Source of the DNA: Cyanobacterium sp. T60_A2020_053
Lineage (GTDB): Bacteria > Cyanobacteriota > Cyanobacteriia > Cyanobacteriales > Cyanobacteriaceae
Direction: 5' to 3'
Assembly: GCA_015272165.1 (NCBI GenBank)
Contig: JACYMF010000098.1
Coordinates: forward strand, 1-64,000
Length of the DNA: 64,000 nucleotides
The notes below the pieces were generated by a model that was given only the letters and a program-made list of their open reading frames with translations, made no database searches and was not told the DNA's origin. The position numbers were made by a program, and so were the translations under genes. Below, in pieces: positions 2,286-56,178 of the stretch. The first letter of the stretch is position 1, and each line of letters begins with the position of its first letter.

Positions 2286-3761
2286 ATGGATATAAAAATT
2301 AGTTCTCAATCAATTTTGGATTGGAGTGGAGATATTATCGCGCTGGGTTTATATGCCAATGAAGTAGAGTTAAACGGGGATTTATCATCATTGGATCAAA
2401 AATTTGATGGTATTATCAGTGAATTAATTAAAGAGCAAGATTTTAAAGGCAAAGAATCCAGCGCCCTCCACACTAGAATCGGCTCAAAAAGCAGTATCAA
2501 AAAAATCATTCTGGTGGGTTTAGGAGAAAAAAAAGACATTACTTTAAATACCTTTAGGATAGCAGGAGGCACTATTGCGCGTTTAGCTAGAGATCAAAAA
2601 GGTGTAAATATCGCTCTTTATTTACCTACAGATGACTACGAAGGGGATAAAATTGCTCAAGTTGTCACCGAAGGAATTATTCTGGCACTACATCAAGATA
2701 AACGCTTCAAATCAGACAAAGAAGAAAGCAAAATAAGTTTAAATAGCGTTCAATTATTAGGTATTAAAGCTTCAGAATCAGCCATTAGCAAAGGACAAAA
2801 AATCGCTGATGGGGTAATTTTAGCCAGAGAATTAGTCAACTCCCCCGCCAATGATATTAACCCTCTCACCATGACGGCAATGGTAGAAAATTTAGCCCAA
2901 GAATACGGGTTAGAGTTAACAGTTTTAGAAAAAGAAGACTGCGAAAAATTGGGCATGGGCGCATTTTTAGGGGTTGCCCAAGCCTCCGATTTGCCCCCGA
3001 AATTTATTCACCTCGTTTACAAACCTTCAGGCGCCCCTCAACGCAAGTTAGCTATTATTGGTAAAGGTTTAACCTTCGATTCTGGTGGTTTAAATATCAA
3101 GGGCGTTGGTAGTGGTATCGAAACCATGAAAATGGATATGGGAGGCGCTGCCGCCACTTTTGGCGCGGCGAAAGCTATTGCCCAACTGAAGCCAGATGTA
3201 GAAGTGCATTTCATCAGCGCCGTCACAGAAAATATGATTAGTGGCAAGGCTATGCACCCCGGCGACATTCTCACCGCTTCCAATGGCAAAACCATCGAGG
3301 TAAATAATACGGATGCCGAAGGGCGCTTAACCCTCGCTGATGCTTTAGTTTATGCCGATAAATTAGGAGTTGATGCCATGGTGGACTTGGCTACCTTGAC
3401 GGGCGCTTGTATCGTGGCTTTAGGGGATGATATAGCTGGGTTGTGGACAAGAAATGATGATTTAGCCCAAAAAATTAAAATCGCTGCGGAGGGCGCTGGA
3501 GAGCAATTCTGGCAAATGCCCATGGAAACCAAGTATTTTGAAATCATGAAAAGTCCCATCGCTGACATGAAAAATACCGGTAGTCGCTCTGCCGGTTCAA
3601 TCACCGCCGCGCTATTCTTAGAACAGTTTGTTAAAGATACTCCTTGGGTGCATCTTGATATTGCTGGACCTGTGTGGGGTGATAAACCTAGCGGTGTCAA
3701 TAATGGCGGTGGTACTGGTTTTGCCGTGCGCACTCTTGTTAATTGGGTTATTGAGAATTAA
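2286..3761 (+). CDS. pepA: Leucyl aminopeptidase (M17 family)
   Basis: PepA is a cytosolic hexameric di-metal peptidase that removes N-terminal leucine and other residues from peptides; in some bacteria it also binds DNA in Xer recombination. The 491-residue length is usual. The metal and catalytic elements are visible: [13 protein letters not shown] at about residues 259-271, MKMDMGGAA shortly after, and the M17 hallmark NTDAEGRL at about 340-347. The N-terminal third is the less conserved regulatory domain. It is a single gene flanked by a repeat downstream. Confidence 0.96.
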
Positions 3762-6006: not shown

Positions 6007-8373
6007 TTCATTATTCATTATCAGTTGTTTTTTGCCCTTTTGATGATTAAAACTCCTTTGTAATAATTGAAATTGTTGGGTTAAATACTCCACGTTAACC
6101 CCTTCCTTGCCATAGCGCCAGCGCACGTAACCGTCAGCAATGAGAATAATAATATCAACTTGCTCCGGTTGTAAAAATTCTCTTAACCTGTCAGCATATT
6201 CTCTAGGGGTTTGTGCTTTATGTTTAGGATAGCCTTTGGTTGTTAGAAAATCGAGGGTTTGTTGGTATAACTTCGCCATAGGTGGTAATTGTGACAGGCG
6301 CTGACGATAAAGCATTTTTTGGGCAAAACTAAACCCTAACCAACCCAAAAAGGCAAGAATAATTAAACCAAAAGCGCCCACCAAAAAACCAATAAAACCA
6401 CCGGTTAAAAAGCGCCAGAGACGGAATAACCAAGGCGATGATAAAAAATCAGAGATACTATCAACAATTTTCTCAAAAAAGATCGTGATAAAAGCAGTAA
6501 TGGGTGATGGCAACCAACTAGCTACCCAATCCCACAATTGTCCTAAAATGCCAAATGTATTATCATCATCTACCGAAGGAGGAATAATTTCATTACCCGG
6601 AATTGGATCAAAATAATACCAACCATATTCAGGAAAATAAACCTCAGTCATGGCATAAGCATCGGTATTATGAACAATATAGTAACCCGTAAAAGGATTA
6701 AATTGACCCGGTGCAAAACCCACGACGAGGCGCGCTGGAATGCCAATGGAGCGTAACATAAGAGTGTAAACAGTGGAAAAATGATCGGGATAACCGCCCT
6801 CAAATTTGGTTAAAAAAGCAGTGGCTAAATCTTCTCCTTCTGCTAAAGGGGGAATATCACCGTTAATAAAATAATTTTGTTTGATAGCTTGAGCTAAATA
6901 TAAGGCTTTGTCGTAGTTAGAATTTAACTCCCGATTGGCTTTACTCAATAACTCTTGAGTTTTTTGGCTGATTATTTCTTGACTTTCTTCGGGAATCTGC
7001 AAATAATATTTGCTGATGGAATCAGGATAGTTATTGCCAGTTTGAGATAATTCCGTTTGGTTACGTTTTGGAACTTTTGATACTACGGTATAGGTTAAAC
7101 CTTCAATTAAACCAGCAGGAGACCTTAAACTATCTTCGGTATCCTGTACGATTTGATCTGTAGGAAAGTAAAGAAAACGGGGATTAGGTAATAAAGGAAT
7201 AATATTCGGTAAATCGGAAACCACGGTAAAAGTTTGGATAACTCCTTCCGTGTCGGCTTTGATGTCAGGGATAGCGAAGTTAAATTGATAATTCCAAGGA
7301 TTACGATCTACTTCGAGGATTTGATTTTCCCTTGATATTTCCCACCCTGTACCATTATATTGATCAAACGCCATGGCGCGCCAAAAACCGGGCGCTTGAG
7401 AGCGAATCCTTAACACAATTTTGCGGTTAGTCATGCTACCGCGCAGATTTTGGTTAATTTTAGTATTAAAACCATAATAAAAGGTATCGTCAACTTGCCC
7501 AGCGCCCCTCCCCTCGTCATCACCACCCATGACGTTATCATTTCCTCCTGTGCCACTGCCATTTTCTCCCTCACGGTTATAACCGGGGTTAACAATACCT
7601 CCCCCAGCTTCTGCTTGACTAAAATCGAGGTTTTCTAAGGCTTCAGGGGCGCTAACCGGAAAAGTTTGCAGTTGATAACCCGGATAACGAGGCATAATAG
7701 CAAAAATAATTAAACCGATAACCACGGTGATGGAGATAAAAGCCGTAATTTTTTTCGGTGCGAGGGACGAATTTTTTAAGCCATTACCTTTTTTTTGAGA
7801 AGATTTGTACTCATTTTCATAGATAGGTAAACCCATGCGAGAGCGATAATCCAGAATCATTGCTGGAATAGCGATGAGGAGAAACAGCAACAGCCAAGGA
7901 GCAAAAGCCACCGTTTGTGATAGAGTACCAGCTACCCCCATTAAAATTAAACCAATTACCATGGAGTAACCTAAGTCTTTACGACGCGGTAAATCGAAGC
8001 TATGTAAAACCTGTAGTTGTACTAAAAATCCTGCTAAAACGAGGCGATTATCAAATAAACTGCGCACTAAATTTCCTAAAAAGAAAAATAGGGTAGCAAT
8101 CATCGTCATGGCGAGAATGAATTTGAGGGCAATATTTTTTTTCTTTCTCCGGCGCCAACTGACAATAGCGCCCGTCACACTTAGGGGTATCGCCCAAATA
8201 CTCATAGGAAAATCTGTCACCGCCGCCACATCGGTGGCAATTACCCCCACAATTACCATTAATTGTACCAACACCCGCAACAAAATTGATTCCTCGGTGA
8301 GGGGCGCTGGTAACGCCTTTATTTGACTGATAATCTCTTCAAACCGCAATACTTGCTTCAATTTCTCCATCAT
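6004..8373 (-). CDS. Membrane transglutaminase-like protein (DUF3488/TgpA type)
   Basis: The 789-residue protein has the TgpA-like layout: several membrane helices in the first 230 residues (DUF3488 region), a large periplasmic transglutaminase-like domain, a transmembrane segment near residue 650, and a cytosolic DUF4129-like tail. The fold segments are clear (GGYPDHFSTVYTLMLRSIGI near 525, TDAYAMTEVYF near 571, FDPIPG near 589). However, the positions where active transglutaminases have Cys and His hold Pro (GGYPDHF) and Tyr (DAYAM); the Asp remains. It is therefore probably not a standard Cys-His-Asp enzyme. Its stop codon lies in a mobile-element end. Confidence 0.85.
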   Translation of the reverse strand: MMEKLKQVLRFEEIISQIKALPAPLTEESILLRVLVQLMVIVGVIATDVAAVTDFPMSIWAIPLSVTGAIVSWRRRKKKNIALKFILAMTMIATLFFFLGNLVRSLFDNRLVLAGFLVQLQVLHSFDLPRRKDLGYSMVIGLILMGVAGTLSQTVAFAPWLLLFLLIAIPAMILDYRSRMGLPIYENEYKSSQKKGNGLKNSSLAPKKITAFISITVVIGLIIFAIMPRYPGYQLQTFPVSAPEALENLDFSQAEAGGGIVNPGYNREGENGSGTGGNDNVMGGDDEGRGAGQVDDTFYYGFNTKINQNLRGSMTNRKIVLRIRSQAPGFWRAMAFDQYNGTGWEISRENQILEVDRNPWNYQFNFAIPDIKADTEGVIQTFTVVSDLPNIIPLLPNPRFLYFPTDQIVQDTEDSLRSPAGLIEGLTYTVVSKVPKRNQTELSQTGNNYPDSISKYYLQIPEESQEIISQKTQELLSKANRELNSNYDKALYLAQAIKQNYFINGDIPPLAEGEDLATAFLTKFEGGYPDHFSTVYTLMLRSIGIPARLVVGFAPGQFNPFTGYYIVHNTDAYAMTEVYFPEYGWYYFDPIPGNEIIPPSVDDDNTFGILGQLWDWVASWLPSPITAFITIFFEKIVDSISDFLSSPWLFRLWRFLTGGFIGFLVGAFGLIILAFLGWLGFSFAQKMLYRQRLSQLPPMAKLYQQTLDFLTTKGYPKHKAQTPREYADRLREFLQPEQVDIIILIADGYVRWRYGKEGVNVEYLTQQFQLLQRSFNHQKGKKQLIMNNE

Positions 8374-8419: not shown

Positions 8420-8440
8420 GGGTTGAATACTATTCAACCC
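8420..8440. repeat. Perfect 21-bp palindrome, copy 1
   Basis: The site is a perfect inverted repeat: GGGTTGAATA, one central base, TATTCAACCC. It is followed by CCTACC. A second perfect copy lies at 44255-44275 and a degenerate one at 56158-56178. All three are intergenic. It could form a transcript hairpin, but no T-run follows. Confidence 0.6.
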
Positions 8441-8473: not shown

Positions 8474-9149
8474 TTATTTTTTACTTTTGCCTAAAAAACC
8501 CAATACCCCAAAGCTAATAATACCTAAAACCAGAGAAGGTTCAGGAGTAGTCAGACTATTACTGGCAGATAAAGTAATATTATCAAAATGATGAAATGGG
8601 GCTTGTTGAATCCAACTCACAGATAACAGATTATCAAACCCTGTAAAATTAAAAGTCTGAAATCCTCTGGTGCTATCGTCAGTAACACCAACACCATCAA
8701 GAGTAAAACTTTGATTTACAGTGGAAGAATCTGCCTTTGTACCAGTAAAATTAACAGGCGCACCTCCCGTCGTATTTAACTGATCCAAATCGATAGACAG
8801 TAAATCAAATGCACTGCCATCATCCTTAGTTAATGTTGCCTCCCCATTGACATTGTTATCGAAAAAGGAAACTGAGCCTTGGTATCGGGGAGTATCTTGG
8901 GCATTAACAGAAAAGAAATTGGAGTTATTGGGATTACTTGTAACTAAAGTAAAGCCATCCTCACTGTAGGATGCGCCCTCATTCGTCAAACCAGCAGAAT
9001 CATTACGCAAGGCTTCAAAGTCAATAACGAAACTAGCGCCCTCCGCCTTAGCCATCACACCAAACACAGAAAGAGACGTTAACAAAGCTAGAGAATAGCT
9101 GAAAGCCTTATATTTGCAGGGGGGGGGTAAACTTAGCGATTTTTTTCAT
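8474..9149 (-). CDS. PEP-CTERM sorting domain protein, start out of frame
   Basis: This looks like an exported surface protein of unknown role. The C-terminus carries the sorting signal: PEP in TTPEPSLVLG, one hydrophobic helix and a basic KSKK tail, recognised by the exosortase (see 35783-36700). The intact frame from an internal Met runs 8474-9085 (203 residues) but lacks a signal peptide. A better ATG lies at 9149 (MKKIAKF), and the hydrophobic stretch FSYSLALLTSLSVFGVMA sits just ahead of the internal Met. The two are separated by a run of nine C residues on the coding strand. Eight would join them into a 224-residue protein with a normal signal peptide. It is either phase-variable or a sequencing error. 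Confidence 0.8.
9119..9127. repeat. Homopolymer G9 tract in PEP-CTERM gene leader
   Basis: Nine consecutive G (forward strand) sit between the ATG at 9149 and the signal-peptide core. The tract length decides the reading frame: lengths of 5, 8 or 11 give the intact frame, while 9 gives an early stop. Such tracts mutate by slipped-strand mispairing. Confidence 0.7.
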
Positions 9150-11361: not shown

Positions 11362-11955
11362 TTAATGAAATAAGTAGGACAACTCTTGTAATTTTGAACC
11401 TAAATTAGCACCTGTGCGCCCAGTAAAAATCCACACCACAGAACGTATGGCATCTCGAAAAATACGCAAATTTGACTCAGTAATATTCACATCTGAAACT
11501 GAAACAGTAGTGTAAGCAATTCCCCTACTACCAAAGACAAAATAAGCAATAGTTTTGGCTCTTTCCATGTGAAAAGCTGAGGTAATTAAATATACATGAT
11601 TAATATTATTTTCCTTAAAAATATCTACTAAAGTAGTAAAATTTGTGACGGTATCTGTCGCTTTTAAATCCCAATTAACACGATCTAAATTAATACCTTG
11701 TTCTTCAAAGATTTTTTTGGATTCTTTAACAGGAATACCACTAGAAATCCAAATAGGTAAATTAGGATGATTTTGGGCAAATTGAGCAGTATAAATTTCT
11801 CGGTTATTCCCCCCCCCCAACATAAAAATTGCTTGTGGTTTAGGATTGAGGAGACGGGCGCTGGTTAATCTCATGGGAATAAAACCGATAATTAGTAGTA
11901 AGATAACTAAATTAAATATTAACCAAAACTTCTTTTTTTCATTGACAAACAACAT
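11362..11955 (-). CDS. YdcF/DUF218 family membrane-anchored protein
   Basis: The 197-residue protein starts with one membrane helix (about residues 10-28) and then has the DUF218 domain: FMLGGGNNRE near residue 44, WISSG, the signature ATDTVTNF near 100 and ITSAFHMERA near 124. Family members (YdcF, SanA, ElyC) have roles around the cell envelope, but the exact reaction is not known. The conserved GGG is encoded within a run of ten G residues (11809-11818 on the forward strand as C), so the gene could be switched off by a single slippage event. As read, it is in frame. Confidence 0.85.
   Translation of the reverse strand: MLFVNEKKKFWLIFNLVILLLIIGFIPMRLTSARLLNPKPQAIFMLGGGNNREIYTAQFAQNHPNLPIWISSGIPVKESKKIFEEQGINLDRVNWDLKATDTVTNFTTLVDIFKENNINHVYLITSAFHMERAKTIAYFVFGSRGIAYTTVSVSDVNITESNLRIFRDAIRSVVWIFTGRTGANLGSKLQELSYLFH
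11809..11818. repeat. Homopolymer C10/G10 tract inside DUF218 gene
   Basis: Ten C on the forward strand encode part of Leu and three Gly of the DUF218 motif on the reverse strand. Length 10 keeps the frame; 9 or 11 would truncate the protein near residue 50. Confidence 0.7.
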
Positions 11956-16103: not shown

Positions 16104-16254
16104 AAATTTTCAATATAATCATATATCAAAGAGCCTAAAACTTGAAGATAATTTTTATCATTTTGGCTAAGTGTTTCTTGAGATAAAATATTATTAATTC
16201 GTTGTTGAATAACGTTTAACATCAATTTTGTTTGATAACTTAGAAATAAATCAA

Positions 16255-16623: not shown

Positions 16624-18456
16624 ATGAATGAATATCTAAATTTAATCAATGAATTTGCCCAAATTATTCCACTTATTTCCCATAGTAAAGTAGGAAAAAA
16701 ACTGCCTAATCATCTTTATATTCATACCAGCGCCCTCCCCGCACTCCATGAGGATATACAAAAGTTTGAACAAAAAGTAAGACAACATTTTAAATTGAAG
16801 AATGATTTTACATTGGTTAAATTTAATCTTCAGGAAGCAAAACTATCCTATCTTTATTATCCTGAATTTGACATCAATCCTCACCCCAGCATCAGTAAAA
16901 GTATTTTAGTTAACTTATCTGAAAATACCATTAAAACATACGAATATAATCAAAGTGAAAACCCTGCCATTTTACATCGCAAAGAAACCTTTGTTACCTC
17001 TGATTATCCCCATTATCAAAAATTTGCTTACTTAACTAATATTGAAGAAAAAATAGGCTTATTAGACAACTCTCGTTATATAGGGACTCAACAAAAATGG
17101 CAACAATTATTACAAGATCATAACCTTAGTTTTATTGATCATAACTTAGTATGTCATTTGAGTCAAAACCCCACTAATTTGATAGAAATTGACCGTCATC
17201 GTGCTGCTATTGTCCGAAAAAATATTTCTCGCCCCGTTAAATTAGCTCTTGAAGCACAATTATTTCAACCTGAATCGACATTTTTTGACTATGGTTGTGG
17301 TCATGGTGAAGATATTAAATTTATAGCAGAAAAAGGTTATCAAAGTGATGGCTGGGATCCATATTATCAGCCTAAAAATCCTTTTAAAAAAGCAGATATT
17401 GTTAACTTAGGTTATGTGATTAATGTGATCGAAAATTTACAAGAAAGACGAGAATCTTTACTCAAAGCATGGTCATTAACTGAAGATATTTTAATCGTTT
17501 CTGCCCAAGTATTAGTTGATGATCGTCAACTGGGTTTAATGCCATACGGTGACGGCATTATTACAGAAAGAAATACTTTTCAAAAATACTATTTACAAGA
17601 CGAGTTAAAAAACTATATTGAACAAATTCTAAAAACTGAACCTGTTGCCGGAGGATTAGGGGTGTATTTTGTCTTTCGAGATGAAACTAAAGCCCACAAT
17701 TTTCGAGCCTCTCGTTTTCATTCTAACCTCAGCGCCCCTCGCATCTACAAACCTCTCAAAAACTTTGCTGATTACCAAGAATTATTAACGCCTCTCATGG
17801 ATTTTTACATCCAAAGGGGTCGATTACCGATAAAAGGTGAAATTTCTCAAGAAGATGCCATTAAAGCTGAATTTGGTACATTTAAAAGGGCTTTCAGAGT
17901 GATTTTACAGGTGACTAATGATACTGAATGGGAACGTATTGAAGACTGTCGTCGCCAAGAAATTTTATTGTATCTTGCCCTTAGTCGTTTCACCCAGCGC
18001 CCTTCGGTGCGCAAATTATCTTCTGAATTAAAAGCGGATATAAAAGCGTTATTTGGTAATTATCAAGTGGCGTGTTTTTTAGCCGATGAAATGTTAATTA
18101 GTTTACGAAATTTAGAGTTAATTAAAAAATTGTGTCAAACTTGTGAAGTTGGTAAAGTATTCGACCGTAGTTTTTTAATTCATCATTCTGTATTAGATCA
18201 ATTACCCACTTTATTAAGGTTATATGAAAGTTGCGCTAGTCGAGTGGTAGGGGCGCTGGAGGGCGCTAATTTAATTAGATTTTATTTCGATGTTGCTCAA
18301 ATTGGTTATTTATACGCTCCTAATTTTAATACAGAAAAAGAACCGATGATTAAAACTATTATGACTATTAATTTAAAAGATTTAAGAGTACAATATCAAA
18401 ATTTTAATAATACCGACAAAGCTCCTAAAATTACTTGTAAATCTAGTTTACAATAA
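16624..18456 (+). CDS. DNA phosphorothioation-associated putative methyltransferase
   Basis: The 610-residue protein matches the family annotated as DNA phosphorothioation-associated putative methyltransferase. A Rossmann SAM motif TFFDYGCGHGEDIKFIAEKG lies near residues 219-238, after the conserved RHRAAIVRKNISRPVKLALE. The family signature SAQVLVDDRQLGLMPYGDG follows near 292. N- and C-terminal parts share a similar YLYYPEFD / YLYAPNFN segment, suggesting an internal duplication. No dndABCDE, dptFGH or ssp genes are present in the window, so it is an orphan here. The substrate (DNA or other) is unproven. Confidence 0.8.
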   Translation: MNEYLNLINEFAQIIPLISHSKVGKKLPNHLYIHTSALPALHEDIQKFEQKVRQHFKLKNDFTLVKFNLQEAKLSYLYYPEFDINPHPSISKSILVNLSENTIKTYEYNQSENPAILHRKETFVTSDYPHYQKFAYLTNIEEKIGLLDNSRYIGTQQKWQQLLQDHNLSFIDHNLVCHLSQNPTNLIEIDRHRAAIVRKNISRPVKLALEAQLFQPESTFFDYGCGHGEDIKFIAEKGYQSDGWDPYYQPKNPFKKADIVNLGYVINVIENLQERRESLLKAWSLTEDILIVSAQVLVDDRQLGLMPYGDGIITERNTFQKYYLQDELKNYIEQILKTEPVAGGLGVYFVFRDETKAHNFRASRFHSNLSAPRIYKPLKNFADYQELLTPLMDFYIQRGRLPIKGEISQEDAIKAEFGTFKRAFRVILQVTNDTEWERIEDCRRQEILLYLALSRFTQRPSVRKLSSELKADIKALFGNYQVACFLADEMLISLRNLELIKKLCQTCEVGKVFDRSFLIHHSVLDQLPTLLRLYESCASRVVGALEGANLIRFYFDVAQIGYLYAPNFNTEKEPMIKTIMTINLKDLRVQYQNFNNTDKAPKITCKSSLQ

Positions 18457-18952
18457 TTTAATTATTGGCGTTCCTGAATCAAGGTATGATGTAGGGAAAC
18501 AAAGAGTAAAGTGAAAAGAAATGAAATTTTCAGAATGTGGCTCTGAGCATATAAAGAAAAAAAACTTGCTCGAAAAGTGACGGATGAGGGATAAAACCCC
18601 TCCACAAAAAATCCAGCGCCCTCCACCCTTCCTTAAAAACCAGCGCCCTCCACCATTGGCATTTGGTGCATGAACGAACAAAACACCAGCCGAAGTAGGT
18701 GAACCACTTAACATAACATTAAGAGTGTCAGTTTGTGTAACAGTATATGTACTGAACTTGTTATGTAAATTTTTGATAAAGTTAACGAAAATTTCCTTAG
18801 TCACTTTACTAACATTGACAAGGTACAAGGTAAAGTTCACAATGGAAAGAGAAAACCTGTCCATAACCGTCAAAAAGTATCAACTATGACTTATTAAGAC
18901 AGCAAAAACCGTTATTTTCATCTAGTTATATTGAAATTGTTAAGGTATAAAA
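18457..18952. other. 496-base gap without a convincing gene
   Basis: I see no supported gene. The word CAGCGCCCTCCACC occurs twice within about 45 bases (18614-18660), the local peak of the genome-wide repeated word. A reverse-strand frame of 141 codons exists but has low-complexity, unnatural composition, so I do not call it. Confidence 0.4.
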
Positions 18953-35782: not shown

Positions 35783-36700
35783 TTAAAATTTAAAATTAAA
35801 TTCCTCTACTTCACTTTCTTGATGGTTATTTTCTCTAGGAGTCAACTGCCATGTTTCTAACCATAAAACCCACAAATAAATTACCCCTAAAGTTAAGGCT
35901 GAATATACATCCCCCCCCCAACTGTCGTGAAACCATGTAAATAAATCATCATAACCGGCACCATGAAAAAATGCTAGAATCGTGTTGCGAATGATGTTAC
36001 CCATGACACTGGTAATGACTGCCATGATGATTAATATAAACGGCTTCGGGCGCTGGTTTAGTAAATCTCGCCAATAAAGCAAAATTAAAGACACATATAA
36101 AGTGGTAAAAAGCATTTTTAACCCTGCGCAGTAGGGCGCTACTTCCACCAAGCGCCCGTTAACCGCCACATAAATACCGTTGACGGTGACATTAAAACCC
36201 AAATGAAAGAGAATAAAACCCGAAATTCCAGCAATAATTTTTTGTAACCACAGAGTGTAAGGAGTAATCAAATAGGGTATGGAGTTAGGCACAGCTAAGA
36301 TAATCAGTAATAACGGAAACCAAAATAATTTTAATCCTTGTTTACCTTTAAGGAAATAAGTTAAACCAATAATCATGAGAGTGAAAGAAAAATTAACAAA
36401 TTCACTCACCCCTGTGAGAAAAAATACTCCAGCTAAAGCCACTACAAATAACCCAAGATAATTAAATTGATAGGATAATTTTTGCCATGGTTTTCTTTTT
36501 AGCCAAACTAAGTAACTAGCGAAAGGAATACCAATTAAGCCATGACTAAAGTATTCATGCTCAATGCCAATACTTTTATTTAACCACCCATCATACCAAT
36601 GCCATAACACTGGTGCATACATCACCGCTAAAATTGCCAAAATTAAATAATTAAATTTATTTCCCTGTTTATGAGGAGAAAATTGGTTAACTAATTCCAT
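35783..36700 (-). CDS. crtA: Cyanoexosortase A
   Basis: A 305-residue polytopic membrane protein of the exosortase family, the presumed transpeptidase that cleaves PEP-CTERM signals. The catalytic set is present: Cys in VAPYCAGLKML near residue 190, Arg in GNIIRNTILAF near 238, and His in the FHDSWGGD segment near 262. About eight helices are predicted. The WGG codons lie in a run of eight G (35911-35918 as C), keeping frame. Its likely substrate in the window is the PEP-CTERM protein at 8474-9149. The symbol is the exosortase one, not the carotenoid gene. Confidence 0.9.
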   Translation of the reverse strand: MELVNQFSPHKQGNKFNYLILAILAVMYAPVLWHWYDGWLNKSIGIEHEYFSHGLIGIPFASYLVWLKRKPWQKLSYQFNYLGLFVVALAGVFFLTGVSEFVNFSFTLMIIGLTYFLKGKQGLKLFWFPLLLIILAVPNSIPYLITPYTLWLQKIIAGISGFILFHLGFNVTVNGIYVAVNGRLVEVAPYCAGLKMLFTTLYVSLILLYWRDLLNQRPKPFILIIMAVITSVMGNIIRNTILAFFHGAGYDDLFTWFHDSWGGDVYSALTLGVIYLWVLWLETWQLTPRENNHQESEVEEFNFKF

Positions 36701-44254: not shown

Positions 44255-44275
44255 GGGTTGAATATTATTCAACCC
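44255..44275. repeat. Perfect 21-bp palindrome, copy 2
   Basis: GGGTTGAATA, one base, TATTCAACCC, then CCTACG. Same word as 8420-8440. It lies between a TonB receptor and the binding protein. Confidence 0.6.
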
Positions 44276-56157: not shown

Positions 56158-56178
56158 GATTGAATATTATTCAACTCC
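56158..56178. repeat. Degenerate 21-bp palindrome, copy 3
   Basis: GGATTGAATATTATTCAACT matches the palindromes at 8420 and 44255 with changes in the outer stem. A GTAGGTTGGGTTGAGG-type repeat lies just upstream (56103). Confidence 0.5.

Follow-up and report, generated by a model that had tools for sequence, protein, structure and literature searches.

We propose with moderate confidence that a gene for a predicted exported PEP-CTERM protein is subject to translational phase variation, in which slipped-strand mispairing would act on a homopolymer in the region of the gene that encodes the signal peptide of an exosortase-type surface protein, and that the copy described here is now in the OFF state. 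The gene lies on the minus strand of a 64,000-nucleotide stretch of cyanobacterial DNA (the window), which belongs to a 3.36 Mb draft genome of 118 contigs (G000). Three things are observed directly: the frame arithmetic, the run itself and the occurrence of both ON and OFF states among related genes.

Results

The window gene is divided between two reading frames

A run of nine C residues occupies nucleotides 23-31 of the coding sequence of the window gene (Table 1). On its 3' side the minus strand reads TGCAAATATAAGG, or, taken further, TGCAAATATAAGGCTTTCAGC. The hydrophobic core of the signal peptide and the C-terminal TTPEPSLVLGIISFGVLGFLGKSKK share a body frame that is open for 223 codons; it begins at a TGA that overlaps ATG 9149 and has no ATG, GTG or TTG upstream of TTG 9085. 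With a run of n residues, ATG 9149 joins this frame only if 22 + n is divisible by 3, that is, if n is 8 (or 5 or 11). As sequenced, the n-region and the hydrophobic core, recognized as parts of a signal peptide by eye and by alignment, are in different frames. The first-pass annotation had claimed that the ATG and the core make one signal peptide only with 8 (or 5 or 11) C residues and that nine are present, and direct reading of the sequence (nine C residues, 9127-9119) agrees on both counts. It had also placed a stop after about 20 codons, which needs correction: in the C9 state, the ATG frame translates as MKKIAKFTPPLQI, a product of 13 residues that ends at the TAA at 9108-9110.

Table 1. 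Layout of the window gene, and the run and frame state of the members of its leader family
Feature	Position	Strand	Run	State or remark
Frame-disrupted gene, exported PEP-CTERM protein (predicted)	8474..9149	-	C9	OFF; stop codon 8474-8476
ATG and signal-peptide n-region (MKKIAKFT...), ATGAAAAAAATCGCTAAGTTTA, 22 nt	9128..9149	-		
C9 homopolymer (G9 on the plus strand), proposed switching tract	9119..9127	-	C9	OFF
TAA ending the 13-residue ATG-frame product in the C9 state	9108..9110	-		
17-nt block 3' of the run, here TGCAAATATAAGGCTTT	9102..9118	-		family pattern YRCAANNATAAGGSTT
Hydrophobic core of the signal peptide, FSYSLALLTSLSVFGVMA, then AKAEGA	9050..9103	-		
TTG, earliest possible start in the body frame	9083..9085	-		
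C-terminal PEP-CTERM-like signal, TPEPSLVLGIISFGVLGFLGKSKK	8486..8551	-		
Terminator-like palindrome GGGTTGAATAGTATTCAACCC and T-rich tail, just 3' of the gene	8420..8440	-		
C108 (G000)			C9	OFF
C113 (G000)			C6	OFF
C58 (G000)			C6	OFF
C37 (G000)			C8	ON
C77			C6 after T	in frame; body frameshifted
C69 and C18			without run	ON
G001 copy			C6 after GTT	ON
G004 copy			without run	ON; TTG start
G011 (another genus) C303			C8 then AC	OFF, opposite direction; intact 237-codon ORF

A PEP motif is visible at the C-terminus of the window protein (TPEPSLVLGIISFGVLGFLGKSKK), with PF07589 scores of 16.1 bits (genome search) and 13.2 bits (hmmscan), both below the cut-off of 20.7 that other PEP-CTERM genes in G000 exceed. 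Searches of the gene body against Pfam and NCBIfam returned nothing except this weak PEP-CTERM match, the AlphaFold model of the body has a pLDDT of 36 and was set aside, and a plasmid collection contained no match.

Two repeated sequences were also observed in the window. The palindrome GTTGAATNNNATTCAAC occurs, with at most 2 mismatches, at 8422-8438, 44257-44273, 56159-56175 and 16204-16220 (4 sites versus 0.56 expected); one site directly follows the window gene, and the sequence is a candidate REP-like or terminator element. The sequence GGGCGCTGG or its complement is present 34 times in 64 kb versus 0.15 expected (for example at 3491-3499, 8302-8310 and 18613-18648), far more often than the usual cyanobacterial HIP1 sequence GCGATCGC (6 copies), and is a highly iterated motif of the window's lineage.

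Relatives of the window gene are found in both frame states

Using a DNA search together with protein alignment of the leader, we gathered a leader family whose N-terminus reads M...(S)TPPYK[YN]KG[FL], followed by a hydrophobic core and, in most members, AEGA. The paralogues have an n-region laid out ahead of the run like that of the window gene, and the bodies of the family are diverged and carry PEP tails. Fragments of the family are present at C94, at C41 (two) and in G001 (one or two, decayed). At C41:16351-16473 and 17540-17662 (L150 and L151; G000, minus strand) there are copies of the leader and signal peptide with ORFs of approximately 50 aa, which end shortly past AEGAV in unrelated sequence and may be remnants or small exported peptides.

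Five OFF copies, those of the window, C108, C113, C58 and G011 C303, have no second lesion in approximately 200-240 codons. In G000 and G001b, every out-of-frame copy requires the same +1 step, the C6 and ATC5 copies among them. Across the relatives, the frame at the run varies in either direction, and it is often lost there in genes that are otherwise intact. C58 (OFF) and C18 (ON), the closest OFF/ON pair, are 48% identical, with a dN of 0.46 and a dS of 1.35. These values indicate a protein that was constrained for most of its history and kept under purifying selection through most of the divergence of the pair. The dN/dS values of most other pairs are near saturation and were set aside.

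The family is narrowly distributed. The window gene has no orthologue in the other 14 genomes of its taxonomic family; among 391 genomes of the order, strong matches to the leader protein profile are confined to G000, G001, G004 and G011; and among the leaders read in 293 genomes of the order, the leader DNA is confined to G000 and G001. Two other ideas about the leader were discarded. Scanning the genome_contigs collection for CCCCTRCAAANATAAGGSTT, to see whether leader DNA has spread generally, gave 8 unrelated matches. An origin of the leader from a REP element was considered because CCCCTACAAATATAA is also found in the intergenic palindrome that follows the C77 gene; there is only that one exact copy genome-wide, and the resemblance is attributed to chance.

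Long runs recur in the heads of other PEP-CTERM genes

Runs of this kind are also present in PEP-CTERM genes of other types. The gene at C40:26438 in G000, of a type unrelated to the leader family, is in frame (ON) with a run of G10 in its signal peptide. In its G011 homologue (39% identical) the run at this place is G8, and the frame is broken exactly there (OFF), the rest of the gene being intact. A third type, in G003 (same genus, one contig), has G9 ahead of the signal-peptide core and is in frame (ON); this gene has no homologues in the other genomes of the family. With the leader family, at least three types of PEP-CTERM gene in two genera have C/G runs in this position, of both in-frame and out-of-frame lengths.

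We counted C/G runs of at least 8 residues in 33 PEP-CTERM genes from the genomes of the family, taking the first 75 nt as the gene head. The heads (2,475 nt) contain 7 such runs, where 0.04 are expected at the run rate of G000 applied to all genomes. In the bodies of the same genes there are none in approximately 23 kb, a total inflated by overlong spans of C108 and G011_111 that leave the run counts unaffected. With the runs counted as three independent gene types, the enrichment in heads has a P value of about 1e-5.

Other long runs in the genome leave their genes in frame

All C/G runs of at least 8 residues in G000 were located (80 eight-base windows, representing 59 distinct runs), and each was checked for its position inside an intact ORF. 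Of the 59 runs, 46 lie in ORFs that are clearly intact and no shorter than 150 aa; on inspection, the remaining 13 are mostly in short genes, in genes with a close neighbor or in intergenic DNA. Only two runs break the frame of a gene: that of the window gene and the C9 run at C108:3196-3204, in a paralogue with the same leader. Approximately 50 other genes in G000 hold C/G runs of 8-10 residues in frame. Frame breaks are found at 2 of 4 runs in PEP-CTERM heads versus 0 of approximately 48 other genic runs (Fisher P 0.005). Two runs within the window, of ten (11809-11818) and nine (35911-35919) residues, are G on a minus coding strand and lie in frame in intact ORFs; the former encodes the three glycines of LGGGNNR in a protein of 197 aa.

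Nucleotides 3' of the run are conserved in the leader family

The block YRCAANNATAAGGSTT is conserved at the nucleotide level in 12 paralogues or homologues while the amino acids vary (compared were 9102-9118 on the minus strand, L065-L078, L132, L133, L150 and L151). Third positions of the TAC/CAC/TGC, NAT, AAG and GST codons are invariant across the 12 copies, and TAC and AAG are minority codons (23% and 17%, respectively, in the window). Copies that need no frameshift have the block as well. The block may be an element that acts at the RNA or DNA level within the 5' coding region; phase variation does not account for its conservation.

Discussion

Phase variation as the favored explanation

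In the mechanism that we favor, the C run, starting 23 nt into the coding sequence, would gain or lose a base at replication through slipped-strand mispairing. With 8 or 11 C residues, translation from the ATG would run through the leader, the signal-peptide core and the body (ON); with other run lengths, it would stop early (OFF), as predicted for the C9 state that was sequenced. The protein, once made, would be exported by the Sec pathway and then become an exosortase substrate, either at the cell surface or within the matrix. We infer frequent and reversible changes of run length, a surface location for the protein and a benefit of the variation to the cell.

Several lines of evidence lead us to favor phase variation. 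The C9 run puts an otherwise intact body of 223 codons out of frame, and the same genome holds one paralogue that is OFF at C9 and another that is ON at C8. The homologues with G10 (ON, G000) and G8 (OFF, G011), the G011 relative of the leader family that is OFF at C8 in the opposite direction with its body intact, and the third gene type that is ON at G9 in G003 argue for the same mechanism, as do the enrichment of long runs in PEP-CTERM heads with none in bodies, the restriction of long-run frame breaks in G000 to PEP-CTERM leader genes, and the dN and dS values of C58 and C18, which indicate a constrained protein. As phase variation predicts, run lengths are mixed among copies, bodies are intact behind OFF runs and breaks elsewhere are lacking, in a comparison that covers one genome per species.

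Other observations weigh against phase variation. Some out-of-frame paralogues lack a hypermutable run length, C113 and C58 being OFF at C6, which is too short for frequent switching; the window copy is unaffected by this point, and C113 and C58 may be locked-off relics of longer runs. Given that approximately 50 genes hold runs of 8-10 C/G residues in frame, such runs are perhaps not very mutable in this organism. The decayed members at C77, C94 and C41 (two) and in G001 (one or two) also count against it. The proposal of the first-pass annotation that this may be a phase-variable surface protein is thus partly supported. It fares well on the comparative runs, seen in both frame states in at least three PEP-CTERM types and two genera, and on the intact frames at the remaining long runs in G000, and less well on the C6 out-of-frame paralogues, in which switching is expected to be rare, and on the clearly decayed copies.

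We also suggest, more tentatively, that the window gene is part of a phasome, in which C/G runs in the signal-peptide region of unrelated PEP-CTERM genes would cause each cell to display a random subset of these proteins. If so, the proteins might have roles in adhesion, biofilm formation or escape from phages or grazers, and switchable exosortase-type surface proteins would be a genetic source of cell-to-cell surface diversity in a free-living phototroph. The pseudogene-like appearance of such genes in annotated genomes, or the odd start codons assigned to them, would then be explained as well.

Decay, recoding, assembly error and internal initiation

Of the other explanations, gene decay is the most plausible, though we consider it rather unlikely. 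Here, the leader family would be young, dispensable and subject to fast birth and death, with no adaptive switching; the OFF copies would be recent pseudogenes, and the homopolymer simply the place where the first inactivating indel tends to land. The fragments and broken copies at C77, C94, C41 (twice) and in G001 are what decay would produce, as are the two copies that are OFF at C6 and the patchy distribution (none of the 14 other genomes of the family has an orthologue of the window gene); in the scheme of PMC3711429, clusters limited to one or two genera are possible pseudogenes. However, five OFF copies have no other lesion across approximately 200-240 codons, and decay alone does not predict that long runs should be concentrated in the heads of unrelated PEP-CTERM genes, including the G10/G8 pair.

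Recoding, which we regard as improbable, would ensure that some full-length protein is always made, either by a +1 ribosomal shift on CCC-C, with peptidyl-tRNA-Pro re-pairing with CCC, or by slippage of RNA polymerase. CCC is known to serve as a +1 site in bacteria (for example, CCC_UGA in Listeria phages, and pheL; PMC5009743), the same +1 step would restore every out-of-frame copy in G000 and G001b, C6 and ATC5 included, and the bases 3' of the run are conserved at the nucleotide level. The offset, however, is not conserved: three copies (C37, G001a and C77) are in frame, and that of G011 C303 is offset the other way. The conserved block is present also where no shift is needed, a search after the run for a stimulatory RNA hairpin found none shared among the copies, and the genes with G runs would be left unexplained.

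It is very unlikely that the ninth C is an assembly or sequencing error and that the true genome has C8 and an intact window gene. While the assembly is a draft in 118 contigs, a general homopolymer error would hardly leave approximately 50 other genic C/G runs of 8-10 all in frame and break genes at only 2 of 59 runs, both in PEP-CTERM leaders of one family; moreover, the C6 copies are likewise out of frame. Least credible of all is initiation at the internal TTG 9085 with a noncoding upstream ATG and run since, although this TTG opens a 203-codon ORF in the body frame, a start there would remove the charged n-region along with part of the hydrophobic core, and the in-frame relatives C37, G001a and G004 offer no early internal start, their translation having to begin upstream with the same leader peptide.

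Comparison with known systems

Programmed +1 frameshifting at CCC, as in Listeria phage tsh and cps and E. coli pheL (PMC5009743), resembles the window family in that CCC-C would allow perfect re-pairing after a +1 shift and in that all out-of-frame copies in G000 need +1; it differs in that here the offset is not conserved, a stimulator was not found and several homologues are plainly in frame.

PEP-CTERM substrates of exosortases (PMC1569441; for cyanoexosortase B of Nostoc punctiforme, PMC12188702) have a signal peptide, a diverse body and a C-terminal PEP motif followed by a hydrophobic stretch and a basic end, a layout that the window protein seems to share. In contrast to these, the window protein scores below the Pfam cut-off (16.1 versus 20.7 bits) and its signal peptide is out of frame in the sequenced state, and the leader TPPYK[YN]KG[FL] shared by its family is not described in the literature examined.

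Close parallels are the slipped-strand phase-variation systems of Neisseria and Campylobacter (poly-G/C) and of Listeria inlA (poly-A; PMC2831843), in which a homopolymer near the start of an ORF for an exported protein sets the frame by its length and several related loci occupy different states in one genome. Unlike those systems, the window gene belongs to a cyanobacterium and not to a pathogen, the targets are PEP-CTERM proteins, the runs of 8-10 residues lie in the signal-peptide region, switching is proposed from sequence, and two relatives are out of frame with runs of just six C residues. Homopolymers (poly-A/T) at the 5' ends of genes have been argued to be a general switch in prokaryotes (PMC2831843), and phase variation has been studied mainly in pathogens and mostly for exposed proteins (PMC3711429). 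In the open-access literature, we found homopolymer phase variation reported neither for cyanobacteria nor for PEP-CTERM proteins. The mechanism proposed here would be of a known kind, while the host group and the class of target appear to be new.
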